Assembly (NCBI RefSeq): GCF_002995495.1
Contig: NZ_PVZV01000002.1
Span: 744,001-808,000 of the forward strand
Reading direction: 5' to 3'
DNA from: Actinocorallia populi
GTDB lineage: Bacteria; Actinomycetota; Actinomycetes; Streptosporangiales; Streptosporangiaceae
DNA length: 64,000 nucleotides
Shown: piece after piece, positions 3,143-33,096 of the stretch
Layout: every line of letters starts with the position of its first letter
How positions within the stretch are numbered: the stretch's first letter is position 1
The notes under the pieces: model-generated
What the model was told of the DNA's origin: nothing
What the model saw: the letters and a program-made list of their open reading frames with translations, nothing else
Database searches by the model: none
Program-made: the position numbers and the translations under genes

Positions 3143-3322
3143 TCAGGAGAGGGGCTCGGCCAGCTCGGCCAGCCTGGCCCGCAGCTCCGCCAGATGCGGG
3201 GTGCGCACCAGCTCGTTGCCCCGCACGGCCCACCAGTGGCCGGATCCGCCCCGGCCGATGCGCCAGCCGGAGAACTCCGCGTGCAGGTCGGCCAGCGTCC
3301 GCCGTGCGTTCTCCATCTTCAT
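3143..3322 (-). CDS. Small hypothetical protein (59 aa)
   Basis: A short frame with an AGAGGA ribosome-binding site just upstream of ATG 3322, G/C-biased third positions and a composition unlike a random frame: an N-terminal helix-like part, a Trp-rich centre (GHWWAVRGN at about 28-36) and a charged Leu/Ala/Glu-rich C-terminal helix. Proteins of this shape are common beside regulators in actinomycetes, but I assign no function. A second ATG at 3316 would shorten it by two residues. It overlaps a longer frame on the same strand that I reject. It lies between dapA and the acetyltransferase gene, on the same strand as both. Confidence 0.6.
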   Translation of the reverse strand: MKMENARRTLADLHAEFSGWRIGRGGSGHWWAVRGNELVRTPHLAELRARLAELAEPLS

Positions 3323-20258: not shown

Positions 20259-23200
20259 TCAACGCCGCAGCCGCACCCCCCGGGGCGTCGGGTGGAAACC
20301 GGCCTCCTCCAGGAGGCGGCCCAGGGGCGAGCCCGTGACCGGCTCGCCGTCGGCGCGTTCCACGGTGACCTGGTCGAGCACGCCCTCCCGCACGGCGCGC
20401 ACCAGTGCCCGCGTCCCGGCTCGCCAGCCGTCCTCGTTCCAGGTCAGCAGGGTCCTGCCTCCGCGTTCGGCGTAGAACGTCAGCGCGCCGTCCACCAGGA
20501 CCACGAACGCCCCCGCCTTCCGACCGGGCCGGTGCCCGCCCCGGCCCTCCGGCCAGCCGAGTGCCGCCCCGTACGGGTTGGCCGGATCCTCCGCGGCCAG
20601 CACGACTCCCGCTTCCTCTCCTTCCGGAGAGGCCCGCAGGGAGCGCAGCAGGTCGACGGCCTCGGGCAGCGCGAACTGCGCGGCTCCCAGCCCCGCGACG
20701 AAATACCCGCGCCGGCAGTGCCCGCCCTCCTCCTGAGCCCGCAGCACCGGATAGAGCCCGGCGAACCCGCCCGGCACCCGCTCGGCCGCGACGGCCCCGC
20801 GGAGGACGATCCCGTACCGCTGCAGAAGCACCTCGCTCAGCGCGTGCGCCCGTCGCGTGGGGTCGTCGTCCGGTGCGGGGACCAGCCACCACCGTCCCGC
20901 CGCCGCAGGCGGAACGGTCCGCACGGGCAGGACCGGCCGCCCCCTGCGCACCACCCGGGCCCGGGGCGCCGGACGCCCCGTCCCGGCAGCCGCCCGCACC
21001 GGGCCCAACGTGTCATTGGTCACCCGGCCGGCCCACACGAGCTCCCACAACGCTTCCAGGAGCTCCCGGTCCGCCGGTCCGGCGCCGCCCGCCGGCGGGA
21101 CGGCCGCCACGGGAGCAGGAGCGGCAGATCCCAGGACGGAACGGACGCGTTCGGCGAGGGCGGGGAAGAAGAGGGCGGACCCGTCGGAGAGAACGGACAG
21201 GAGTGCCTGGTGGAGGGGGGCACGAGGGCCCGGCGGGAGCTCGGCGGCCGGGGGAATGAGCAGGGACGCGGTGTCGGCGGGATGGAGGGAGACGCGTCCG
21301 CCACCGTTGGGAAGGGCGCCGCGACCCACCCAGAGGACCTCGCCGGAGGCGGTCAGCTCGTCCAGAAGGGCGGGCGCATAACCGGGGACGCGGGACGGGA
21401 GGATGAGGCTCTCCAGCGCCGAGACCGGCAGGGGGACGCCCTGGAGGCGCTCGACGGCCTCGTAGAGGGCGTCGGAGCCCCCGCGAAGGGCCCCGACCCC
21501 CTGCCAGCGGGGAAGGAGCCGGGCGAGCGCCTCCGGCGGGGAGGGCTCGACCTCGGCGCGAAGCCGGGCCAGGGAACGCCGCCGGAGCAGGCGAAGCACC
21601 TCAGAATCCACCCATTCCGGACCGGTACGTCCCGGTGTGAACTCGCCCTCGATGACGGACGGAAGCCGCGCCAGGACCTCCCGCACCACGGCGGCGCCCA
21701 GCCCGAGCCGGACCGCGGCGTCCGCCGTGGTGAAAGGCCCGTGCGTACGGGCGTACCGGGAGAGGAGGTCCCCCAGGGGATCGTCGCCGCCACCCGTCAG
21801 AAAGGGCTCGGGAACCCCCGAAGGCAACGAGACCCCCAGCGCGTCCCGAATCCGGGCGGCGTCCTCGACCGCGGCCCAGCGCTCGACCTCCCCCACCCGA
21901 ACCCGGATCACCCGCCGCTCGTCCTCCAAAGCCGCCAACCACTCACCGACCGCGGATTCCCCCCGGAAAACCGCACCTCGCGGCAACACCACCCGCGCGC
22001 CGCCCGAATCCGCCCCCACCGGGCCGGTGCCCGCCCTGATCGGGCTGGTGTCTGCCCTGATCGGGCTGGTGTCTGCCTCGGTTGGGCTGGTGTCTGCCCC
22101 GACCGGGCTGGTGTCTGCCTTGGTTGGGCTGGTGTCCGCCTCGGTTGGGCTGGTGTCTGCCCCGACCGGGCTGGTGTCTGCCTTGGTTGGGCTGGTGTCC
22201 GCCTCGGTCGGACTGGCATCCGCCTCGGTCAGGCCGGTGTCCGCCTTGATCGGGCTGTTGTTCGGTCCGTTTTCCGGGGGGTCCGGTCTTCCGGTCGTTG
22301 AGGGCGGGACGGGAGGCGTTCGGTCGTGGTCCGTGCTCGACGGGTGTGTCGGCTGTGCGGTGTCCGGGGCCGGTTCGGCCTGGGGGGAGGCCGGGGCGAG
22401 GGTGCGGGCCTGGATCTCCGGCCGGGTCAGGGGGCCGAGGGCGCGGAGGAGGTCGGTCAGGGTGTCGGGATCGGTGGCGCGGCGGGAGGGGGTGAGGCGC
22501 TGGAGGTCGGCTTCGGTGCGGGCCAGGACGTCGGGGTCCAGGAGCTCGCGCAGGTCGCTGTGGCCGAGGAGCTCGGCGAGGAGGGACGGGTCCAGGGTGA
22601 GGGCCTGGGCCCTGCGTTCGGCGAGGGGGGAGTCGCCCTCGTACATGAAGGCAGCGACGTAGCGGAGCAGGAGCGACCGGGCGTAGGGGGAGGCGGTGGG
22701 TGTCTCCACCTCGGCGACGTGGACGGCGCCGGTGGACATGTCGCGCATCAGGGAGACGAGGCCGGGCACGTCGAAGACGTCCTGGAGGCACTCGCGGACC
22801 GTTTCCAGGACGATCGGGAAGTTCGGGTACTTCGCGGCGACGCTCAGCAGCTGGGAGGCGCGCTGGCGCTGCTGCCACAGCGGCATCCGGCGGCCCGGAC
22901 GGTGCCGCGGGAGCAGCAGGGAGCGGGCCGCGCACTCGCGGAACCGGGAGGCGAACAGCGCGGACGAGCCGAGCTCGGCGACGACGAGCCGCTCGATCTC
23001 CTCCGGGTCGAACACGCACAGCTCCGCCGAGGGCGGGAGGCCGTCGGTGTCGGGAACGCGCAGGACGATCCCGTCGTCGGCGTGCATGGCCTGGGCGTCG
23101 AGGCCGAAACGCGCCCGCAGCCGCGCCGCGATCACCAGGGCCCAGGGCGCGTGGACGGGTGCTCCGTAGGGGGAGTGGACGACGAGCCGCCAGTCGCCCA

Positions 23201-25529
23201 GCTCGTCGCGGAAACGTTCGACGACCAGGGTGCGGTCGTCGGGGACGCGGCCCGTGGCCGCCCGCTGCCCGGCCAGATGGGAGAGCAGGCCGTCCGCGGC
23301 GTTCGCGTCGAGCCCGGCCGCCGCCGCGCGCTCCAGCGCCCGCTCGTCGTCGAGCGCGCCGAGCTCGCGGACGAAGGCGCCCAGGGCGCGGCCCAGCTCG
23401 GCGGGGCGCCCGGGGGAGTCGCCGTGCCAGAACGGCAGCCTGCCCGCCCGCCCCGCCGCGGGGGAGACCAGCACCCGGTCGGAGGTGATCTCCTCGATCC
23501 GCCACGAGCTGGCGCCGAGCACGAACACGTCGCCGACCCGGGACTCGTAGACCATCTCCTCGTCCAGCTCGCCGACCCGCGAGGAGTGCTCCCCGGCCAG
23601 GAAGATCCCGAACAGGCCGCGGTCGGGGATCGTCCCGCCGCTGATCACGGCGAGCCGCTGTGCGCCCCGGCGCGCCCGCAACATCCCGTTCCGGCGGTCC
23701 CACACCAGCCGGGGCCGCAACTCCCCGAACTCCTCGCCCGGATAGCGGCCCGCCAGCATGTCGAGCGTCGCCTCGTAGAGGGAGCGGGGCAGGTCCGCGA
23801 ACGGCGCGGCCCGCCGGACCACCCGCTCCAGCTCGTCGACGTGCCACTCGTCCATCGCCGTCATGGCGATGATCTGCTGCGCCAGCACGTCCAGGGGGTT
23901 GCGCGGGTACCGCAGCGCCTCGATCAGCCCCGCCCGCATCCGCTCGGCCACCACCGCGGCCTGCACGAGATCGCCCTGGTGCGTGGGGAAGACCACGCCG
24001 CGGGACACCGCGCCCACCTGGTGCCCGGCCCGCCCCACCCGCTGCAGCCCGCTCGCCACCGACGGCGGCGACTCCACCTGGACCACCAGGTCGATCGCCC
24101 CCATGTCGATCCCCAGCTCCAGGCTGGACGTCGCCACCACCGCCGGCAGCCGCCCCTCCTTGAGCGCCCCCTCGATCTCCGCCCGCTCCTCCTTCGACAC
24201 CGACCCGTGGTGCGCCCGGACCACCACCCCGCCCTCGCCCGCCCTCGACAGGATCGGCGTCCGGTCCCCGGGCGACCGCCCGGTCTCGGGCCGCTTCTCT
24301 CCTGGGGCGGGTCTGTGGTGCGGCCGGGCTGCTTTTCCGTCCTGGGCGGGGCTCGGCGTCTGATTTTCGGGCGGCCGCCTGGTCTCGGGCCGCTTCTCTC
24401 CTGGGGCGGGTCTGGGGTGCGCTTGGGCTGCTTTTCCGTCTTGGGCTGGGGCTGGTGTCTGGTCTTGGGAAGGCCGCCCGGTCTCGGGCTGCTTCTCCTC
24501 CGATGCGGGCTCGGGCGGGACCCGGAGGGCGGCCCAGTCGGCGGCCAGGTCGGGCGGGAGGGGGCGGGAGGAGCCGGACTGGCCCATGAGGAGGGCGGGG
24601 GCGGGGGCGTCGGGGAGGGGGCCGTGGAGGTGTTCGGCGGCGAGTTCGTTGAGGCGGGTGCAGAGGCGTTCGGCGAGGCGGCGGCTGTTGGCGAAGACGA
24701 GGGTGGAGCGGTGGGAGGCGATGAGGGCCAGGACGCCCTCCTCGACGTGGGGCCACAGGGAGCGGCGGCGCGGGTCGGGGGTGTCGGGGAGGTCCGCCGC
24801 CGGGTCCGGGACGGGGACGGTGACGCGCAGGTCGAAGGTCTTGGCCGCGGGGGGCTGCACGACGGTGACGGGGGAGGCGCCGCCGAGGAACGCGGCGACC
24901 TCGTCCAGGGGGCGGACGGTGGCGGACAGGCCGACGCGCCGGGCGGGTGCGGGCAGCAGGGCGTCGAGGCGCTCCAGGGACAGGGCCAGATGGGCGCCGC
25001 GTTTGGTGGCGGCGACGGCGTGGACCTCGTCGACGATCACCGTCTCGACGCCGCGGAGCGACTCCCTGGCCCGGGACGTCAGCATGAGGAAGAGCGACTC
25101 GGGAGTGGTGATCAGGATGTCGGGCGGCCGGACGGCCAGCCGCCGCCGCTCGGCGGCGGGGGTGTCGCCGGAGCGCACGCCGACCTGGATCTCCGGTTCC
25201 GGCAGGCCCAGCCGGCGGGAGGCCGCGCGGATGCCGGCCAAGGGCGCGCGGAGATTGCGCTCGACGTCCACGGCCAGCGCCTTCAGCGGCGAGACGTACA
25301 GGACGCGGCAGCGGCGCTCCGGCTCGGCGGGCGGTGCGGCGGCCAGCCTGTCCAGCGACCACAGGAACGCCGCGAGCGTCTTGCCCGAGCCGGTGGGAGC
25401 CACCACCAGCGTGTGCTCTCCCCGTGCGATCGCCTGCCACGCGCCCGCCTGAGCGGCCGTCGGCTCTCCGAACGTCCCGCCGAACCACTCCCGCGTCGCC
25501 GCTGAGAACTCTTCCATCACCCTTCCCAT
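20259..25529 (-). CDS. lhr: Lhr-type ATP-dependent DNA helicase, with repeat insertions
   Basis: A 1756-residue Lhr (Large helicase-related) protein. The SF2 core has Walker A APTGSGKT (44-51), the DEVH box (about 165) and, in the second RecA domain, VVATSSLELGIDMG and QRVGRAGHQ. It continues with the winged-helix and beta-barrel core and the large Lhr C-terminal domain. Lhr is a 3'-5' translocase linked to repair of cross-links and mitomycin damage in mycobacteria. It is longer than usual members (about 1500-1600) because of two repeat-rich insertions: residues ~340-425, inside the second RecA domain, and ~1090-1173, a heptapeptide array in the linker before the C-terminal domain. ATG 25529 has GGGGAGAGG 5 nt upstream; ATG 25517 is an alternative. 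Confidence 0.93.
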   Translation of the reverse strand: MGRVMEEFSAATREWFGGTFGEPTAAQAGAWQAIARGEHTLVVAPTGSGKTLAAFLWSLDRLAAAPPAEPERRCRVLYVSPLKALAVDVERNLRAPLAGIRAASRRLGLPEPEIQVGVRSGDTPAAERRRLAVRPPDILITTPESLFLMLTSRARESLRGVETVIVDEVHAVAATKRGAHLALSLERLDALLPAPARRVGLSATVRPLDEVAAFLGGASPVTVVQPPAAKTFDLRVTVPVPDPAADLPDTPDPRRRSLWPHVEEGVLALIASHRSTLVFANSRRLAERLCTRLNELAAEHLHGPLPDAPAPALLMGQSGSSRPLPPDLAADWAALRVPPEPASEEKQPETGRPSQDQTPAPAQDGKAAQAHPRPAPGEKRPETRRPPENQTPSPAQDGKAARPHHRPAPGEKRPETGRSPGDRTPILSRAGEGGVVVRAHHGSVSKEERAEIEGALKEGRLPAVVATSSLELGIDMGAIDLVVQVESPPSVASGLQRVGRAGHQVGAVSRGVVFPTHQGDLVQAAVVAERMRAGLIEALRYPRNPLDVLAQQIIAMTAMDEWHVDELERVVRRAAPFADLPRSLYEATLDMLAGRYPGEEFGELRPRLVWDRRNGMLRARRGAQRLAVISGGTIPDRGLFGIFLAGEHSSRVGELDEEMVYESRVGDVFVLGASSWRIEEITSDRVLVSPAAGRAGRLPFWHGDSPGRPAELGRALGAFVRELGALDDERALERAAAAGLDANAADGLLSHLAGQRAATGRVPDDRTLVVERFRDELGDWRLVVHSPYGAPVHAPWALVIAARLRARFGLDAQAMHADDGIVLRVPDTDGLPPSAELCVFDPEEIERLVVAELGSSALFASRFRECAARSLLLPRHRPGRRMPLWQQRQRASQLLSVAAKYPNFPIVLETVRECLQDVFDVPGLVSLMRDMSTGAVHVAEVETPTASPYARSLLLRYVAAFMYEGDSPLAERRAQALTLDPSLLAELLGHSDLRELLDPDVLARTEADLQRLTPSRRATDPDTLTDLLRALGPLTRPEIQARTLAPASPQAEPAPDTAQPTHPSSTDHDRTPPVPPSTTGRPDPPENGPNNSPIKADTGLTEADASPTEADTSPTKADTSPVGADTSPTEADTSPTKADTSPVGADTSPTEADTSPIRADTSPIRAGTGPVGADSGGARVVLPRGAVFRGESAVGEWLAALEDERRVIRVRVGEVERWAAVEDAARIRDALGVSLPSGVPEPFLTGGGDDPLGDLLSRYARTHGPFTTADAAVRLGLGAAVVREVLARLPSVIEGEFTPGRTGPEWVDSEVLRLLRRRSLARLRAEVEPSPPEALARLLPRWQGVGALRGGSDALYEAVERLQGVPLPVSALESLILPSRVPGYAPALLDELTASGEVLWVGRGALPNGGGRVSLHPADTASLLIPPAAELPPGPRAPLHQALLSVLSDGSALFFPALAERVRSVLGSAAPAPVAAVPPAGGAGPADRELLEALWELVWAGRVTNDTLGPVRAAAGTGRPAPRARVVRRGRPVLPVRTVPPAAAGRWWLVPAPDDDPTRRAHALSEVLLQRYGIVLRGAVAAERVPGGFAGLYPVLRAQEEGGHCRRGYFVAGLGAAQFALPEAVDLLRSLRASPEGEEAGVVLAAEDPANPYGAALGWPEGRGGHRPGRKAGAFVVLVDGALTFYAERGGRTLLTWNEDGWRAGTRALVRAVREGVLDQVTVERADGEPVTGSPLGRLLEEAGFHPTPRGVRLRR
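22009..22260 (-). repeat. Twelve in-frame 21-bp tandem repeats in lhr
   Basis: Exactly 12 units of 21 bp encode a heptapeptide of the type T-S-P-(T/V/I)-x-A-D. Groups of three units (63 bp) are themselves duplicated nearly identically, showing recent expansion. The array lies in a linker after the helicase core and keeps frame. Confidence 0.92.
24256..24500 (-). repeat. 99-bp in-frame tandem repeats in the lhr helicase core
   Basis: Two complete units (24282-24380 and 24381-24479) with partial copies on both sides; each encodes 33 residues containing EK(R/Q)PETGRP and PAQDGKAA. They interrupt the second RecA-like domain between RLNELAAE and VVRAHHGS. Confidence 0.92.
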
Positions 25530-25894
25530 GGTGCCTCTCCCCACCGACAGAACCTCCACCTGTCCCATGGGGTCGGGCAGCCGGGGCGGATCCGCCCCCG
25601 GCGAAGAAGGCATGGTGAAGAGGCCACAGGCTCCGCAGGCCCCGGTAAGCCGAAGGCGCGCGGCGGCACCGCCAACGGGTCGTCGAAGAGATCACCGTGA
25701 CATCACGGCGTGCTTTTCGCGGCCTGGTAGAGCTCCGCTTGCCGAGGCGGCCACCGTGGCACGGCATGCCGCAGGCTTCGGCGGGCCGGAGGCGCATGCG
25801 GGGGGGCCGCCGAAGGCCGGAGGGCATCGTCAACGAGGCGATTGTCGATGAGGCCGCGTCAGCAGGAGTCCGCCGGCGTCCGGGCGGAGGCGGG
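25530..25894. other. Intergenic region between lhr and recX
   Basis: 365 bp. It contains the lhr ribosome-binding site and presumably its promoter; the rest has open frames only in shadow phases, with no ribosome-binding site or homology that I can recognise. Several short inverted GGC-rich motifs occur around 25770-25830, but no clean hairpin with a T-tract. Confidence 0.55.
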
Positions 25895-26934: not shown

Positions 26935-28065
26935 TCAGTCGCCGGGCTTGGGGGCCGAGGCGGTGCGGGTGCGCCGGGCGGCCGGAGCCGGGGCCGCCGC
27001 GGCGGCGGCGGGCTCGGCCGCCGAGGGCGGGCCCGCGGGAGCCGCGGCGGGCTCGGCCGGGGCGTCGACGCGGGGGCCGATGCCGAGCTTCTCCTTGATC
27101 TTCTTCTCGATCTCGTCGGAGGTCTCGGGGTGGTTGCGCAGGTAGTTGCGCGCGTTCTCCTTGCCCTGGCCGAGCTGGTCGCCCTCGTAGGTGTACCAGG
27201 CGCCGGACTTGCGGACGAAGCCGTGCTCGACGCCGAGGTCGATCAGGCCGCCCTCGCGGCTGATGCCGACGCCGTACAGCAGGTCGAAGTCGGCGACCTT
27301 GAAGGGCGGGGCCATCTTGTTCTTCACGACCTTGACGCGGACCCGGTTGCCCACGGCCTCGGTGCCGTCCTTGAGGGTCTCGATGCGGCGCACGTCGAGG
27401 CGGACGGAGGAGTAGAACTTCAGCGCCCGGCCGCCGGTGGTGGTCTCGGGAGAGCCGAACATGACGCCGACCTTCTCCCGCAGCTGGTTGATGAAGATCG
27501 CCGTGGTCTTGGTCTGGTTGATCGCGCCGGTCAGCTTGCGCAGCGCCTGCGACATCAGGCGGGCCTGCAGGCCGACGTGGCTGTCGCCCATGTCGCCCTC
27601 GATCTCGGCGCGGGGCACCAGCGCCGCCACCGAGTCGATGACCACCAGGTCGACCGCGCCGGAGCGGATCAGCATGTCGGTGATCTCCAGCGCCTGCTCG
27701 CCGGTGTCGGGCTGGGAGACCAGCAGGGCCTTGGTGTCCACGCCGAGCTTCTCGGCGTAGTCGGGGTCGAGCGCGTGCTCGGCGTCGACGAAGGCGGCGA
27801 TGCCGCCCATCCGCTGGATGCTGGCGACCGCGTGCAGCGCCACGGTCGTCTTACCGGAGGACTCCGGCCCGTAGACCTCCACGACCCGGCCGCGGGGCAA
27901 CCCGCCGATGCCGAGTGCGATGTCGAGGGAGATGGCCCCGGTGGGGATCACCTCCATGGGCGCGCGCACCTCGTCGCCGAGGCGCATGATCGAGCCCTTG
28001 CCGAACTGGCGTTCGATCTGGGCGAGGGCGGTCTCGAGCGCCTTCTCGCGGTCGTTAGCTGCCAT
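26935..28065 (-). CDS. recA: Recombinase RecA
   Basis: A 376-residue RecA with Walker A GPESSGKT (about 67-74), the DNA-binding loop L2 region with [22 protein letters not shown] and a C-terminal Ala/Pro-rich tail ending basic ([13 protein letters not shown]). RecA forms ATP-dependent filaments on single-stranded DNA for recombination and triggers LexA cleavage. ATG 28065 has AGGGG 7 nt upstream; an in-frame ATG at 28110 would add 15 residues but lacks a ribosome-binding site and uses AT-rich codons. A LexA box lies about 110 bp upstream. No intein is present. Confidence 0.97.
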
Positions 28066-28167
28066 GGTCTGCCCCTGTCGGGTCGTCGTGTTCTTTTTCG
28101 GATTCGCCATCTCGGGACCGAAGCTACGCGAGCCCACTGACAAAAAAGCGGCCCTCGTGACACCGCC

Positions 28168-28189
28168 ACTCTACCGAACATAAATTCGA
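28168..28189 (-). promoter_or_regulatory. LexA (SOS) box and -10 of recA
   Basis: CGAACATAAATTCG (28175-28188) matches the actinobacterial SOS box CGAAC-N4-GTTCG with one mismatch. Directly downstream on the minus strand is TAGAGT (28173-28168), a good -10 box, so the operator lies in the promoter spacer. Transcription would start near 28161, leaving a leader of about 96 nt. Confidence 0.8.
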
Positions 28190-28295
28190 TCGGGGCCGGG
28201 CTCGCCGAGCCGTCCGGAACCGGCGGGGGAATCAGGCTGCGCGGTAAGGACCCGGCGACGTACCCTTGCGCTCAGGCGATCAAGCGGGGGCCGGC

Positions 28296-29159
28296 ATGAC
28301 CCTGACCGTTCTGTTCTGCGCCGATCCCCTCGACCCTCGGCGCGTGGATCCGCACTTCGCCCGTGAGGCGGAGACCGTCCGGGCCACGGGCGGCGCTCTG
28401 GCGCTGCTCGACCACGACCTGCTGCGGCGCGGCGAGGCGGCCGAGGCGGTCCGCCGCGTCCCGCGCGGCGTGGGCGGCCTGTGGTACCGCGGCTGGATGG
28501 TGACGGCCGCGGAGTACCACGCGATGGCCAAGGCGCTGGCCGACCGGGGCGGCCACCTCATGACCCCGCCGGACGGCTACCGCCGCGCCCACGAGCTCCC
28601 CGGCTGGTACGAGACCTTCGCCGGCGTCACCCCGCCGAGCGTCTGGCTGCCGCTGGTGCCGGGCGAGACGCCCCCGCCGCGGCTGCTGGCCGAGGCGGTG
28701 CGGGAGCTGGGCCCGGGTCCCGGGGTGGTCAAGGACTACGTGAAGTCCCGCAAGCACGAGTGGGACGAGGCCTGCTACGTGCCCGACCTGGCCGACGCCG
28801 AGCGCCTGCACCGCACCGTCGAGCGCATGGTGGAGCTGCAGGGCGAGTTCCTCGCGGGCGGCGTGGTCGTGCGCCGCTTCGAGGACTACGAGACCGCCGA
28901 GGCGCGCGTCTGGTGGATCGACGGCGAGCCCGTCCTCATCGGCCCCCATCCCGACACCCCGGACGCCGACTGCCTGCCCGTCCTCGACCAGATCCGGCCC
29001 GCGGTCCGCGCCCTGGGGTGCCGCTTCGTCACCACCGACCTGGCCCGCCTGCGGGACGGCGGGTGGCGGGTGGTCGAGGTGGGGGACGGCCAGGTGAGCG
29101 AGCTGCCGGCCGGCGCCGACGTGGGCGACCTCTACTTTCACCTGCCCGATCCCGCCTGA
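28296..29159 (+). CDS. ATP-grasp domain protein, R2K-like (DUF4343) family
   Basis: A 287-residue protein resembling the R2K clade of ATP-grasp enzymes (the group that includes CDC123). The nucleotide-binding core runs from about residue 145: GVVKDYVKSRKHEWDEACYV, then FLAGGVVVRRFEDYE and the metal-binding end WRVVEVGDGQVSELP. The N-terminal ~100 residues are the pre-ATP-grasp domain. Such enzymes ligate a carboxylate to an amine; the substrate is unknown. ATG 28296 follows a GGGGG stretch. It is divergent from recA and 107 bp upstream of the lipoprotein/YjfC/DUF350 genes on the same strand, so a functional link is possible but unproven. Confidence 0.75.
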   Translation: MTLTVLFCADPLDPRRVDPHFAREAETVRATGGALALLDHDLLRRGEAAEAVRRVPRGVGGLWYRGWMVTAAEYHAMAKALADRGGHLMTPPDGYRRAHELPGWYETFAGVTPPSVWLPLVPGETPPPRLLAEAVRELGPGPGVVKDYVKSRKHEWDEACYVPDLADAERLHRTVERMVELQGEFLAGGVVVRRFEDYETAEARVWWIDGEPVLIGPHPDTPDADCLPVLDQIRPAVRALGCRFVTTDLARLRDGGWRVVEVGDGQVSELPAGADVGDLYFHLPDPA

Positions 29160-29205
29160 GAGGGAACCGAACGGAGCCCGCGGGGGTCTCAGAGCGGTGT
29201 ATCGC

Positions 29206-29234
29206 TGTTCACGGACGGTCGGTACCCCTACAAT
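29206..29234 (+). promoter_or_regulatory. Promoter of the lipoprotein-yjfC-DUF350 genes
   Basis: TACAAT (29229-29234) is a near-perfect -10 box; TGTTCA (29206-29211) at 17-bp spacing is a weak -35. The ribosome-binding site GGAGGG of the lipoprotein follows at 29254-29259. Confidence 0.55.
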
Positions 29235-29266
29235 GCGTGCGCATCGTTTCAACGGAGGGACCCCCC

Positions 29267-29602
29267 ATGCCCCGACGTCGTATGAGTTCCCGAGCGGTCA
29301 AGGTAGGCATGCTCGGCACCCTGTCGATGTCCCTCGCCGCCTGCGGCGGCAACTCCTACACCGCGGACTGCGTGGACGGCTACAGCTACAGCGGCGGCCA
29401 GTACAAGGCCGTGAGCGACCGAGACTGCGACTCGGGCGGCAACGGCGGACGCTACTTCTGGTACTACGGGGGCACCGCCACCGGCACCGGTTACATCTAC
29501 AACGGCACCACGCTCAAGCCGCGCAAGGGCGAGATCAAGACGAAGTCGGGGCGCGTGCTGCAGCGCGGCGGGTTCGGCAGCGGTTCCAGCAGCGGCGGCT
29601 GA
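29267..29602 (+). CDS. Small lipoprotein with C-terminal RGGFG motif (YgiB/YjfM-like)
   Basis: A 111-residue secreted protein: basic start, hydrophobic segment and lipobox LAAC with Cys26, so it should be a lipid-anchored envelope protein. The mature part is rich in Tyr, Gly and Ser, has three more cysteines (in TADCVDG, DRDCDSG and the lipid Cys) and ends LQRGGFGSGSSSGG. The RGGFG motif (100-104) followed by a Ser/Gly tail is also found, from memory, in Escherichia coli YgiB/YjfM (DUF1190), which are encoded beside YgiC/YjfC. Here the next gene is a YgiC/YjfC homologue, 3 nt downstream. I infer that it is the ligase's partner or substrate. Confidence 0.72.
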   Translation: MPRRRMSSRAVKVGMLGTLSMSLAACGGNSYTADCVDGYSYSGGQYKAVSDRDCDSGGNGGRYFWYYGGTATGTGYIYNGTTLKPRKGEIKTKSGRVLQRGGFGSGSSSGG

Positions 29603-29605
29603 CCG

Positions 29606-30742
29606 GTGCGAAGAGAGAGGTCCCGGCCGCGCGACGGCTGGGCGTCGACGATCGAGTCGCAGGGGCTGGCCTACCACCGCACGGCCCATCCGGAGAACCT
29701 GACCCGTCCCTACTGGGACGAGTCCGTGCACTACGTGCTGGAGATGGACGAGGTCCTCCATCTGGAGGAGGTGGTCGAGGAGCTGCACCGCATGTGCCTC
29801 CAGGCCGCGGAGCACGTGGTGAGGACGGGGCGCTACGAGGTGCTCGGCATCGACGAGCGCCTGGTCCCGCTGATCGAGGAGTCCTGGCGGCGCCGAGACC
29901 CGCACGTGTACGGCCGCTTCGACCTGCGCTACGACGGCCTGGGCCCGGCCAAGCTGCTGGAGTACAACGCCGACACCCCCACGTCCCTGGTGGAGAGCTC
30001 CATCATCCAGTGGTACTGGAAGGAGGACGTCTTCCCCGAGGACGACCAGTGGAACTCCATCCACGAGCGCCTGGTCGAGCGCTGGAAGGAGCTGCCGCTG
30101 CGGGAGGGCCCCGTCCACTTCGCCTGGACCGAGGCGGACCTGTCGGGCGAGGAGGTCATGACGGTCTCGTACCTGCTGGAGACGGCCGAGCAGGCGGGCC
30201 GCGCGTGCGTCCCCGTCACGATGGAGTCCATCGGCTGGGACGGCGAGGACTACCGCGACCTCGAAGGCGAGCAGATCAAGACGCTCTGCAAGCTCTACCC
30301 GTGGGAGTGGATCGTCGGCGAGCCGTTCGGCGCCTTCGTCGACGAGGCCGACTGGATCGAGCCGATGTGGAAGATGCTCCTGTCCAACAAGGGGCTGCTG
30401 GTCCTGCTCTGGGAGCTCTTCCCCGGCCACCCCAACCTGCTGCCGGCCTACCTGAACACCCCCGGCGACCTGACCTCCCACATCAAGAAGCCCCTGCTGG
30501 GCCGTGAGGGCGCGAGCATGTCCATCACCGCGCCCGGCCTCAGCCAGGAGACCGGCGGCCGGTACGGCGCCGAGGGCTTCGTCTTCCAGGAGTTCGTGCC
30601 GCTGCCGGAGTTCGACGGCCAGCACCCCGTCCTGGGCGCCTGGATGGTCGCGGACGAGTCCGCGGGCCTGGGCATCCGGGAGACGTCGGGCCTCATCACA
30701 GACGACACGTCCTCGTTCATCCCGCACCGGATCCCCCGGTAG
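29606..30742 (+). CDS. YgiC/YjfC-type glutathionylspermidine synthase-like ATP-grasp ligase
   Basis: A 378-residue member of the GSP_synth ATP-grasp family. Landmarks are YGRFDLRYDG, KLLEYNADTPT (116-126, the family signature), the lid region SNKGLLVLLWELFPGHPNLLPAY (split here) near 254-276, and FVFQEFVPLPEF near 325. It lacks the amidase domain of true glutathionylspermidine synthetase, and actinobacteria do not make glutathione as their main thiol, so the name describes fold only. Probable reaction: ATP-dependent amide bond formation on an amine or peptide. GTG start 3 nt after the lipoprotein stop; DUF350 gene follows at 25 nt. Confidence 0.9.
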   Translation: MRRERSRPRDGWASTIESQGLAYHRTAHPENLTRPYWDESVHYVLEMDEVLHLEEVVEELHRMCLQAAEHVVRTGRYEVLGIDERLVPLIEESWRRRDPHVYGRFDLRYDGLGPAKLLEYNADTPTSLVESSIIQWYWKEDVFPEDDQWNSIHERLVERWKELPLREGPVHFAWTEADLSGEEVMTVSYLLETAEQAGRACVPVTMESIGWDGEDYRDLEGEQIKTLCKLYPWEWIVGEPFGAFVDEADWIEPMWKMLLSNKGLLVLLWELFPGHPNLLPAYLNTPGDLTSHIKKPLLGREGASMSITAPGLSQETGGRYGAEGFVFQEFVPLPEFDGQHPVLGAWMVADESAGLGIRETSGLITDDTSSFIPHRIPR

Positions 30743-30767
30743 AGACATCCCTTCCTAAGGAGCCCCC

Positions 30768-31217
30768 ATGCCTCTCGCTCTCGACAGCGCCTTCGGCGAG
30801 GTCCTGGGAGACAACGTCGTCGCCATCCTCGCCTACGCGGGCGTCGGCCTCATCCTGTTCGTGCTCGGCTTCTACGCCGTGGACCTGGCCACCCCGGGCC
30901 GCCTGGTGTCGGTGATCCGGCACGACCGCAACCCGAACGCCACGCTGCTGGCCGCGGCGGGCATGGCCGCGGTGGGCGTGATCGTGTCGGCGTCCATCTA
31001 CGCCACGGACGCCGCGCTGACCGAGGGCCTGATCGCCACCGCCGTCTACGGGGTGGTGGGCATCGTCGCGCAGATCGTGGCGATGATCGTCTTCAACCTG
31101 CTCATCGGGCTGAAGATCAAGGACCTGTGCCACGAGGAGCACCTGCAGCCGGGCACCTGGATGCTGGCGGTCACCTACGTGATGATCGGCCTGGTGACCG
31201 CGCTGGCCGTCATCTGA
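30768..31217 (+). CDS. DUF350 (YjfL-like) membrane protein
   Basis: A 149-residue protein with four transmembrane segments (about 16-37, 58-79, 86-114 and 131-149) arranged as two DUF350 hairpins; charged residues in the short loops are few. DUF350 proteins accompany YjfC-type ligases in many bacteria, including the E. coli yjf operon. Function is unknown; a role in the membrane with the ligase and lipoprotein is an inference from this repeated neighbourhood. AAGGAG precedes ATG 30768. The 3' end overlaps the stop of the convergent DUF3046 gene by 8 bp. Confidence 0.9.
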   Translation: MPLALDSAFGEVLGDNVVAILAYAGVGLILFVLGFYAVDLATPGRLVSVIRHDRNPNATLLAAAGMAAVGVIVSASIYATDAALTEGLIATAVYGVVGIVAQIVAMIVFNLLIGLKIKDLCHEEHLQPGTWMLAVTYVMIGLVTALAVI

Positions 31218-31404
31218 GCCGCTCGGGCACGTCGAACGCCGCGCAGACCGCCTTCCAGACGGACCTGGTGTCGGCCCCGTCGGCGAACGCCTGCTCGACG
31301 GTGCGGCCGCCGAGCTCGGCGATCACCTGATCCTTGGCGATGCTCTCGGCGTAGCCCTCGCCGAAATGCTGGTTCATCCTGGTCCAGAAAGCCGTCAACC
31401 TCAC
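31210..31404 (-). CDS. DUF3046 protein
   Basis: A 64-residue small acidic protein with the family pattern VRLTAFWTRM near the start and AELGGRTVEQAFADG in the middle. DUF3046 is an actinobacterial family usually encoded next to recA; function unknown. GTG 31404 is the family start (the frame is open far upstream but that is the antisense of rny). It converges on and overlaps the DUF350 gene by 8 bp and is divergent from rny. Its usual neighbour recA lies 3.1 kb away, beyond the ATP-grasp cluster. Confidence 0.88.
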   Translation of the reverse strand: MRLTAFWTRMNQHFGEGYAESIAKDQVIAELGGRTVEQAFADGADTRSVWKAVCAAFDVPERLR

Positions 31405-31545
31405 CGGCCCAGTGTGCCAGCCGCCGGGTGGGGCGGGGACACTTTGCTTTACGGATGGCCTTCGTGTGGTACATCCAGATGGCAAAGTCTTTACTTGCTC
31501 GTTAATCCCGGGCGGCTGACAGGGCCGTAAGGAGGGGGCTGCGCC

Positions 31546-33096
31546 ATGGTGAGCGTCGTATTGGGGGCGGCGCTGCTCGTCAGCCTGGTCCTGCTGGCCG
31601 TGCTGGTGGCGCGCCGCCCCGCGCTCGGGAAGGCGGCCGAGGCCGAGCTGCGGAGCCTGCGCGAGCAGGCGCTGCGCGAGGGCGAGGAGGCCGCCGCGCG
31701 GTTGCGCGAGGAGGCGCGCGACCAGGCGGCGGAAGCCCGCGAACAGGTCGAGGAGCAGGCCCGCGCGTTCCGTGAGGAGACGCGGGAGCGGCTGGAGGAC
31801 CTCGAACGCCGGGCGCGCCGACTCGCCGAGCGGGAGCGGCGGCTGGACCAGGAGGCCGAGCGGCTGGAGGAGCGGCGGTCCGGGCTGGACGAGCGGTCCG
31901 CCGCGCTGGACGCCCGCGAGGCCGTCCTGGGCGACGCCGAGCGGGAGCACGGCCGGGCCCTGGAACGGGTGGCGGGGCTGACCGCCGAGCAGGCCAGGGG
32001 CGAGCTGGTCGCGCAGATCCGCGACCAGGCCAAGCGCGAGGCGGCGCTGACCGTCCGGGAGCTGGAGAGCCGGGCCCGCGAGGAGGGCGAGGCACGCGCC
32101 CGCAAGATCGTCACGATGGCTGTGCAGCGGGTGGCCAGCGAGCAGACGACCGAGTCGGTCGTCTCGGTGCTGCACCTGCCGCACGAGGAGATGAAGGGCC
32201 GGATCATCGGCCGCGAGGGCCGCAACATCCGCACCTTCGAGTCGGTCACCGGGGTCAACCTCATCATCGACGACACGCCCGAGGCGGTGCTGCTCAGCTG
32301 CTTCGACCCGGTGCGCCGCGAGGTCGCCCGGCTCACCCTGGAGCAGCTCGTCCTGGACGGGCGCATCCACCCGCACCGCATCGAGGAGGTCTACGAGCAC
32401 AGCCTCGCCGAGGTGGAGACCCTGTGCGTCAGGGCGGGCGAGGACGCGCTGGTGGAGGTGGGCATCACCGAGATGCACCCCGAGCTGATCGCCCTGCTGG
32501 GCAGGCTGCGCTACCGCACCTCCTACGGGCAGAACGTGCTCAAGCACCTGGTGGAGTCGGCGCACCTGGCCGGGCTCATGGCCGCCGAGCTCAGGCTCCC
32601 GGTGGACATCGCCAAACGCGGAACGCTCCTGCACGACATCGGCAAGGCGCTCACCCACGAGGTGGAGGGCAGCCACGCCCTGGTGGGCGCCGAGGTGGCG
32701 CGCCGCCACGGCGAGCACGAGGACGTCGTCCACGCCATCGAGGCCCACCACAACGAGGTCGAAGTACGCACCGTGGAGGCCGTCCTGACCCAGGCCGCCG
32801 ACGCGATCTCCGGGGGGCGGCCCGGCGCGCGCCGCGAGTCGCTGGAGGCCTACGTCCAGCGCCTCGAGCAGCTGGAGCGCATCGCCAAGGACACCCACGA
32901 GGGCGTCGAGAAGGTCTTCGCCATGCAGGCGGGGCGGGAGATCCGGGTCATGGTCAAGCCCGGCGCGGTGGACGACATCCAGGCGCAGGTCATCGCCCGC
33001 GACATCGCCAAGCAGGTCGAGGACGAGCTGACCTATCCCGGGCAGATCCGCGTCACGGTGGTCCGGGAGTCCCGGGCCACCGAGTACGCGCGCTGA
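31546..33096 (+). CDS. rny: Ribonuclease Y
   Basis: A 516-residue RNase Y: an N-terminal transmembrane segment (about 4-23), a long Glu/Arg-rich coiled coil (about 28-190), a KH domain with GRIIGREGRNIR (about 220-231) and an HD domain with LLHDIGK (about 364-370) and HH metal ligands in AIEAHHNEVE. It is a membrane-anchored endoribonuclease that starts mRNA decay in bacteria lacking RNase E. AAGGAGG precedes the ATG at about 12 nt. The gene is divergent from DUF3046 and ends 7 bp from the convergent peptidase gene. Confidence 0.95.
   Translation: MVSVVLGAALLVSLVLLAVLVARRPALGKAAEAELRSLREQALREGEEAAARLREEARDQAAEAREQVEEQARAFREETRERLEDLERRARRLAERERRLDQEAERLEERRSGLDERSAALDAREAVLGDAEREHGRALERVAGLTAEQARGELVAQIRDQAKREAALTVRELESRAREEGEARARKIVTMAVQRVASEQTTESVVSVLHLPHEEMKGRIIGREGRNIRTFESVTGVNLIIDDTPEAVLLSCFDPVRREVARLTLEQLVLDGRIHPHRIEEVYEHSLAEVETLCVRAGEDALVEVGITEMHPELIALLGRLRYRTSYGQNVLKHLVESAHLAGLMAAELRLPVDIAKRGTLLHDIGKALTHEVEGSHALVGAEVARRHGEHEDVVHAIEAHHNEVEVRTVEAVLTQAADAISGGRPGARRESLEAYVQRLEQLERIAKDTHEGVEKVFAMQAGREIRVMVKPGAVDDIQAQVIARDIAKQVEDELTYPGQIRVTVVRESRATEYAR

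Follow-up and report, generated by a model that had tools for sequence, protein, structure and literature searches.

A conserved C-terminal tail marks a small membrane-anchored protein as candidate substrate of a YgiC/YjfC-type ATP-grasp ligase in Actinocorallia populi

In this study, which was based on a 64,000-nucleotide (nt) stretch of the genome of Actinocorallia populi (contig NZ_PVZV01000002.1, positions 744,001 to 808,000; hereafter, the window) and on surveys of genomes, plasmids and viral contigs, we analysed four same-strand genes that encode an R2K-like ATP-grasp enzyme, a small lipoprotein, a GSP_synth-family ligase of the YgiC/YjfC type and a DUF350 membrane protein. The four genes had been proposed from the sequence alone, and both their coordinates and their Pfam matches confirmed the original prediction, whose gaps of 3 nt between the lipoprotein and ligase genes and 25 nt between the ligase and DUF350 genes were exact. 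The lipoprotein, the ligase and the DUF350 protein belong together, and the lipoprotein ends in a short glycine-rich tail, which is associated with ligases of this family in several phyla and in phages. We consider it somewhat more probable than an even chance that the lipoprotein and the ligase form a substrate-plus-ligase unit, in which the ligase would attach an amine (probably a polyamine) as a cap to the terminal carboxylate of the tail, either ahead of export or in the course of it. As the acceptor site of the lipoprotein, the tail is a concrete candidate.

The ligase family was followed in three surveys. A ligase was found in 21 of 60 genomes (the window's own counted) in the first survey and in 19 of 296 genomes of the phylum, 18 of them above the cut-off, in the second; three genomes, including the window's own, were shared between the two. 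In the third survey, loci were fetched by the ligase alone and the best 80 of 575 confirmed ligase loci were kept, all of which were actinobacterial by title, so that the 80 loci lean toward close relatives. The closest named ligase match among them was that of Actinocorallia sp. API 0066 (79% identity), the ligase DNA of which is identical to that of genome G002 of the same genus.

A tail-bearing frame was present upstream of the ligase in all 80 loci, and the last 60 residues formed 80 different sequences. A relaxed version of the motif served to select the frames, and the tail was defined by a core of the GG[F/L/...]G type no more than 40 residues from the stop. The last matching core was RGGFG in 49 loci, RGGLG in 27, KGGFG in two, and RGGSG and RGGIG in one each, while the last two residues were GS (60), GG (18), SS (1) or GT (1), i.e., a G[GS] ending in 78/80. 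Residues R100, G101, G102 and G104 were kept in 99-100% of 81 aligned rows, as strictly as the best-kept body positions (Cys35 in 94%, Cys54 in 98%, Tyr67 and Pro85 in 100%). In 78/80 loci, the partner's stop and the inferred start of the ligase were -4 to +13 nt apart. No such tail was found in the 846 other predicted genes of these loci; among all 8984 open frames of at least 60 codons, 109 carried it, namely the 80 partners and 29 frames elsewhere. Shuffling the partners' last 60 residues with their composition preserved produced the motif in 589 of 16,000 cases (3.7%). In a separate set of 39 loci, one of which was the window's own and two of which were also among the 80, the tail was present throughout (33 strict forms and six near variants); the L066 locus (E 3.5e-4, below the family cut-off) was excluded from this count because tblastn found no ligase there. 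Within the window, the lipoprotein is the only one of 52 predicted genes whose product ends in GG or GS. In Actinomadura barringtoniae (L071), a second, tandem tail protein ending in RGGFGGSSSHSSGG is encoded 593 nt upstream of the ligase by one of the 29 frames mentioned above and was missed by the gene caller.

The upstream neighbour of the ligase belonged to one protein cluster in 73/80 loci and the downstream DUF350 protein to one cluster in 68/80; by tblastn, DUF350 was matched in 69/80, in 67 of them directly behind the ligase at 1.1-1.4 kilobases (kb) from its start and in L105 and L107 farther off. These two genes were the neighbours that recurred irrespective of lineage. The partner protein was also present in all 21 ligase-bearing genomes of the first survey, and the 39 ligase-less genomes gave two weak matches to its profile (E about 2e-4, positions 4-81 and 15-64 of 166), neither of which covered the tail. 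The unit recurs in several distinct genomic contexts: it is flanked by recA and Lhr helicase genes in 10/80 loci and stands beside genes resembling fabD, fabH and acpP (named by eye) in the Streptosporangium/Nonomuraea-type loci. This recurrence across contexts is more than chance. The co-conservation of the lipoprotein and DUF350 genes with the ligase, on which the original prediction depended, was thereby observed. In the recA-less loci (e.g., L025-L035), the unit occupies differing chromosomal places per lineage yet is intact, as if it were mobile as one.

The tail was also found beyond the actinobacteria. In Escherichia coli, where yjfL-yjfM-yjfC and ygiB-ygiC are adjacent as had been predicted, YgiB has the C-terminus TRGGFG...SSRSMGG and YjfM the C-terminus RGGYG...WGG, ending in SRGGYGRSSSARGHWGG; their genes lie 5 and 2 nt ahead of the respective ligase genes. 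The acid substrate of the related enzyme Gss is free glutathione, and around E. coli gss no tail frame was found in the surrounding 9.5 kb. Ligase matches were obtained in 167 of 72,556 plasmid records and in 136 of 50,697 records of a phage collection, a few of the latter resembling host contigs. Thirteen annotated stretches, picked for taxon spread (11 of the 40 listed plasmid matches and two of the 40 listed phage matches), had a strict tail in six cases, a degenerate tail with a GG or GS end in five, a doubtful one in one and none in one; in a Rhodobacter plasmid, the tail gene follows the ligase. Among 66 viral-contig stretches with the ligase, many of which are near-duplicates, a strict tail protein (32 distinct tails) was encoded within 500 nt upstream of the ligase in 41, and 19 more had a variant tail or a tail protein farther off, some downstream (by eye), which gives a looser total of 60/66. 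When the profile of the actinobacterial partner was compared with eight partners from proteobacteria and phages (YgiB, YjfM and six others, of which four are annotated as DUF1190), 19 columns comprising the tail alone were aligned with a probability of 50.4; without the 42 C-terminal residues of the partner, the probability was 2.8 and nothing credible was aligned. Our claim is limited to the tail being the one segment that this comparison aligns. In the T4-like Aeromonas phage 44RR2.8t (L225, 1690-5191), the ligase is accompanied by a strict tail protein three genes earlier and by a Band-7 lipoprotein.

The ligase matched PF03738 over its full length (profile positions 1-371 of 371; 477.7 bits against a cut-off of 29.3) and is the sole match of this family in the genome. 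Among the PDB sequences, it matched E. coli YgiC (1.3e-80) and YjfC (9.9e-78), with 40% identity each over the alignment, and its model (predicted local distance difference test, pLDDT, 92.3) had YjfC (7uk6) as the best fold match with a template modelling (TM) score of 0.94, while the listed chains of E. coli Gss scored 0.77-0.89. In the GSP_synth family, adenosine triphosphate (ATP) activates a carboxylate, which is joined to an amine; in Gss, it is the carboxylate of the glycine of glutathione. Among 25 Gss positions checked, R316, D318, E330, N332, E391, E392, K498, K533, Q568, R538, R598 and L603 were identical in the window ligase, whose R104, D106, E119, N121, K262, K295 and R358 align with Gss R316, D318, E330, N332, K498, K533 and R598; we take the aligned positions that were kept to be the ATP/Mg catalytic positions. 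S335, S337, T441, T446, K607 and D610 were not identical, and these presumably have roles in glutathione or spermidine binding. The ligase scored 112.8 bits against the 882-bit cut-off of the NCBIfam Gss model and, with 378 amino acids, lacks the amidase domain, which places it outside the bifunctional Gss enzymes. Peptide-spermidine ligase activity of the E. coli homologues is said to have been described by Pederick in 2023. RefSeq lists YgiC and YjfC under the name peptide--spermidine ligase, and an excerpt of PMC12506659, citing Sui 2012, states that YgiC has no Gss activity.

At E up to 1, none of the Pfam and NCBIfam families, DUF1190 (PF06693) included, matched the window lipoprotein. 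Its model, which was of modest quality (pLDDT 68.2 overall, dropping under 50 at residue 104 and beyond), matched no PDB entry at E <= 0.001. Judged by sequence, the ligase passes the tests for a YgiC/YjfC-type enzyme and the lipoprotein falls outside the DUF1190 model. The term lipoprotein fits the window protein, which has an LAAC lipobox, but this property is lineage-specific: among the 44 of 80 partners that were delimited by one gene-caller pass, 12 had a lipobox (simple pattern) and 34 a hydrophobic anchor, with three having both and one neither. At E 1e-4, the partner bodies formed 15 clusters, in which YgiB and YjfM were separate from the actinobacterial cluster. Two tail proteins (L266 in G006 and L267 in G029) had no ligase within 1.5 kb; both genomes hold a ligase elsewhere, and these orphans could be served in trans.

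The partner looks like an acid substrate because of its flexible glycine- and serine-containing end, the adjacent ligase, and the conservation of the core and the end in an otherwise drifting sequence. The sequences show the genes, their co-conservation, the tail and the retained catalytic positions, and from them we infer that the tail would be the substrate, the bond C-terminal, the amine a polyamine, and the modification tied in time to export. In the proposed mechanism, a small membrane-anchored protein with a small domain that holds a conserved cysteine pair and with a flexible RGG[F/L]G tail ending in Gly-Gly or Gly-Ser would be exported to the cell surface. The cytoplasmic YgiC/YjfC-type ligase, which is encoded directly behind it, would bind the tail before or during export and, in the way that Gss treats the glutathione glycine, would use ATP to activate the terminal carboxylate of the tail. 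The activated tail would then be joined to an amine, most likely a polyamine, which would give a membrane protein with a cationic C-terminal cap. Since the N-terminal lipobox or anchor should put the tail outside, the reaction should precede or accompany export. DUF350 would be a membrane partner. The case for a polyamine draws on the named activity of the E. coli homologues, on the homospermidine synthase gene ahead of the pair in Achromobacter phage Motura and on such genes in 3/66 viral stretches (that of Motura counted), on the second DUF350 gene of this genome beside a gene for a spermidine-synthase-like membrane protein, and on the polyamine genes of the PspA-linked operons (PMC11237479).

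Several observations weigh against this mechanism. The ligase and an exported substrate are in different compartments. The last residue varies (Ser in 61/80, Gly in 18 and Thr in 1; of 35 distinct viral tails, 13 end in Ala or Glu) and because of this a strict rule of a terminal glycine, as in glutathione, does not hold; the spacing between the core and the end ranges from 2 to 29 residues, with 7 to 11 in 58/80. The 846-gene control is biased against small glycine-rich genes, given that the tandem tail protein of L071 was missed, and one of the 51 other window genes (3143-3322) has RGGSG in its last 45 residues when the pattern allows Ser. Among the annotated plasmid and phage stretches, L227 has no tail and that of L224 is doubtful; six of the 66 viral stretches have none, and in three of these the contig breaks off within 240 nt upstream. 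Moreover, 131 of 147 partner bodies chain together at E 1e-3 (single linkage), with YgiB in the large cluster, and the tail may therefore have been inherited within one divergent superfamily. The idea that unrelated bodies share a tail, which we had entertained, was weakened by this chaining and partly restored by the clustering at 1e-4. AdoMet (S-adenosylmethionine) decarboxylase (PF02675) was unmatched in this genome and, among the 20 further ligase-bearing genomes of the first survey, in 18; for this reason home-made spermidine is doubtful, and a different amine, a different route or uptake has to be invoked. Neither the homospermidine synthase of Achromobacter phage Motura nor E. coli SpeD had a match in the 80 actinobacterial stretches.

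The variable distance between the core and the end would suit an explanation in which the ligase makes soluble peptide-polyamine conjugates and the tail protein is a receptor, sensor or scaffold that docks the ligase or its product. It would also agree with the RefSeq peptide--spermidine ligase names, with the action of the related Gss on free glutathione, and with the polyamine monitoring proposed for related operons in an excerpt of PMC11237479. Docking, however, needs no G[GS] end, yet 78/80 partners have it. The six Gss positions that presumably contact glutathione or spermidine are, furthermore, not identical in the ligase, and we regard this alternative as unlikely.

The substrate-plus-ligase unit leaves room for a different cap: in place of a polyamine, the tail protein could receive an amino acid or some other small amine at its C-terminus from the ligase. 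With AdoMet decarboxylase unmatched in 19 of the 21 ligase-bearing genomes, this one counted, and with fold-related enzymes such as the glutathione synthetases (fold matches) using amino acids, this has some appeal; it is nevertheless quite improbable in our view, since the named activity of the E. coli homologues concerns spermidine and a homospermidine synthase stands beside the pair in 3/66 viral stretches, that of Motura counted. In Motura itself (L226, 2303-5896), a 221-kb phage, the genes for homospermidine synthase, the tail protein and the ligase are consecutive, and a DUF350-like gene lies a short way downstream. Canonical spermidine synthesis was rejected as a source in this genome, AdoMet decarboxylase not having been found. 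A single protein of the genome matched Spermine_synth; about nine membrane segments are predicted in it, and its gene neighbours a second DUF350 gene. At L241 (contig C4, about 11.6-15.1 kb), this second DUF350 gene is followed by the gene of a membrane protein with a fused spermidine-synthase-like domain, and then by the genes of a small protein and of a trypsin-type protease-like protein (the last by eye).

The original prediction had also raised the R2K enzyme as a possible second ligase; in this four-gene reading, it and the GSP_synth ligase would act serially on the lipoprotein. An R2K gene with the orientation of the trio does lie ahead of it in this genus, in G003 and in 10/80 loci, and R2K.3 enzymes are predicted protein modifiers according to an excerpt of PMC4431377. 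In all 10 loci, however, it is beside recA, and no R2K match was found at E 1e-5 in the other 70 stretches; over-cut-off R2K matches in four other relatives (G009, G010, G011 and G017), of which G009 has no ligase, had no match to the other window genes within 1.5 kb. We therefore regard R2K as a neighbour and not a member, discarded it as part of the system, and consider the two-ligase proposal very improbable. Scarcely credible is the last alternative, in which the tail would be a sorting, assembly or binding signal apart from ligase chemistry and the pair would be kept by co-regulation only: RGG boxes are reported to be binding motifs in eukaryotic proteins, and the orphans L266 and L267 exist, but both of their genomes hold a ligase, the tail-ligase association spans several phyla and phages, and the tail has no hydrophobic segment, unlike the known C-terminal sorting signals.

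If the tail is capped as we propose, it would be a surface-tethered polyamine, and it may serve envelope channels as a tethered plug or as a sensor of charge, by which phages may alter the host envelope; to this extension we give tentative credence, short of an even chance. Polyamines are channel and porin blockers, and the suggestion arose from this property together with the ion-channel genes near some pairs, which were seen on Rhizobium and Deinococcus plasmids and as matches in 5/66 viral stretches (two near-duplicate pairs among them). The Rhizobium channel had no match in the 80 actinobacterial stretches.

The features of the locus are listed in Table 1. The four-gene stretch is flanked by recA and rny. 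The original prediction had placed one TACAAT promoter before the last three genes; the hexamer is present, but a promoter at this site is unproven because a sigma-70 scan of 28000-31600 gave a single promoter-like site, which is located elsewhere. The third-position G+C content was 96-98% in the R2K, ligase and DUF350 genes, similar to recA and rny, and 90% in the lipoprotein gene, which gives the unit no mark of fresh acquisition. Neither the four window proteins nor the Motura pair matched any family among the PADLOC models of anti-phage defence (E 0.001), and a known defence system was rejected on that account. A small gene on the minus strand (31214-31377), which we take to be DUF3046-like, converges on the end of the DUF350 gene and had a tblastn match in the 10 recA-type loci of the 80. 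DUF3046 beside mycobacterial psp genes is discussed in an excerpt of PMC11237479. Farther off, an Lhr-like helicase gene on the minus strand (20259-25613, named by eye) contains a run of near-identical ADTSPTEADTSPTK-type repeats.

Table 1. Features of the R2K, lipoprotein, ligase and DUF350 locus (window positions)
Feature	Position	Strand	Basis
R2K_3 ATP-grasp gene	28296-29159	+	Pfam PF14243, 9.4e-48, 163 bits against a cut-off of 26.3
TACAAT, possible -10 element ahead of the lipoprotein gene	29229-29234	+	Letters read directly
GGAGG	29254-29258	+	Present ahead of the lipoprotein gene
Membrane-anchored tail protein (lipoprotein, 111 amino acids), candidate protein substrate	29267-29602	+	Lipobox, tail
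Lipobox codons L-A-A-C, residues 23-26	29333-29344	+	Translation
C-terminal tail RGGFG-SGSSSGG, proposed ligase recognition and acceptor site	29564-29599	+	RGGFG core and glycine end conserved
GSP_synth-family (YgiC/YjfC-type) ATP-grasp ligase, 378 amino acids	29606-30742	+	Pfam PF03738, 3.5e-143
DUF350 multi-pass membrane protein (YjfL-like), 149 amino acids	30768-31217	+	Pfam PF03994, 4.3e-23, 82.3 bits against a cut-off of 26

In the literature that we covered, no natural acceptor is named for YgiC and YjfC in E. coli K-12; the tail proposes the protein encoded upstream and points to the last residues of that partner as the place to look for a modification. If this is true, bacteria would widely modify exported proteins by capping their C-termini with amines, phages would carry this modification as well, and a simple tail motif would predict the substrates of these ligases. 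Among the records listed, literature on YgiC/YjfC, their partners, DUF350, DUF1190, R2K, the RGGFG core and polyamines yielded no description of the tail; we do not claim that it is unpublished, as key enzyme papers may anticipate a part. The enzyme class and the proteobacterial gene set are already known, and the original description of the system as undescribed was for this reason only partly right: the ligases carry RefSeq names, and excerpts of PMC11237479 describe a PspA-linked polyamine operon with an ATP-grasp ligase, DUF350, DUF1190 and a potassium channel.

The nearest known relatives are E. coli YgiC and YjfC (7uk6 and 7uk8), which the window ligase resembles in sequence (40% identity) and fold (TM 0.94 to 7uk6) and also in the order of partner then ligase, with gaps of 2-5 nt in E. 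coli and a partner with the same type of tail. In contrast to E. coli, the window partner is unmatched by the DUF1190 model, the genome has no AdoMet decarboxylase match, and no tblastn match to YjfI, YjfJ (PspA) or YjfK was found at E 1e-3 in the 80 actinobacterial stretches. The PspA-linked operon likewise brings the ligase, DUF350 and a lipoprotein together, with a Rhizobium plasmid as an example, but in the excerpts of PMC11237479 it is described around PspA, whereas the actinobacterial unit has no PspA nearby; those excerpts contain no mention of a C-terminal tail or a protein substrate. E. coli Gss shares the Pfam family, the fold and R316, D318, E330, N332, E391, E392, K498, K533, R538 and R598 with the window ligase, which differs from it in the absent amidase domain and at positions 335, 337, 441, 446, 607 and 610; unlike the window ligase, gss has no tail gene nearby. 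In eukaryotes, according to an excerpt of PMC12270671, the C-terminal carboxylate of SUMO carries a spermidine amide, which is made by E1/E2 enzymes and reversed by Ulp1. The two cases would be alike in placing spermidine on the C-terminus of a protein, and the eukaryotic, E1/E2-made conjugate is offered here as an analogy only.

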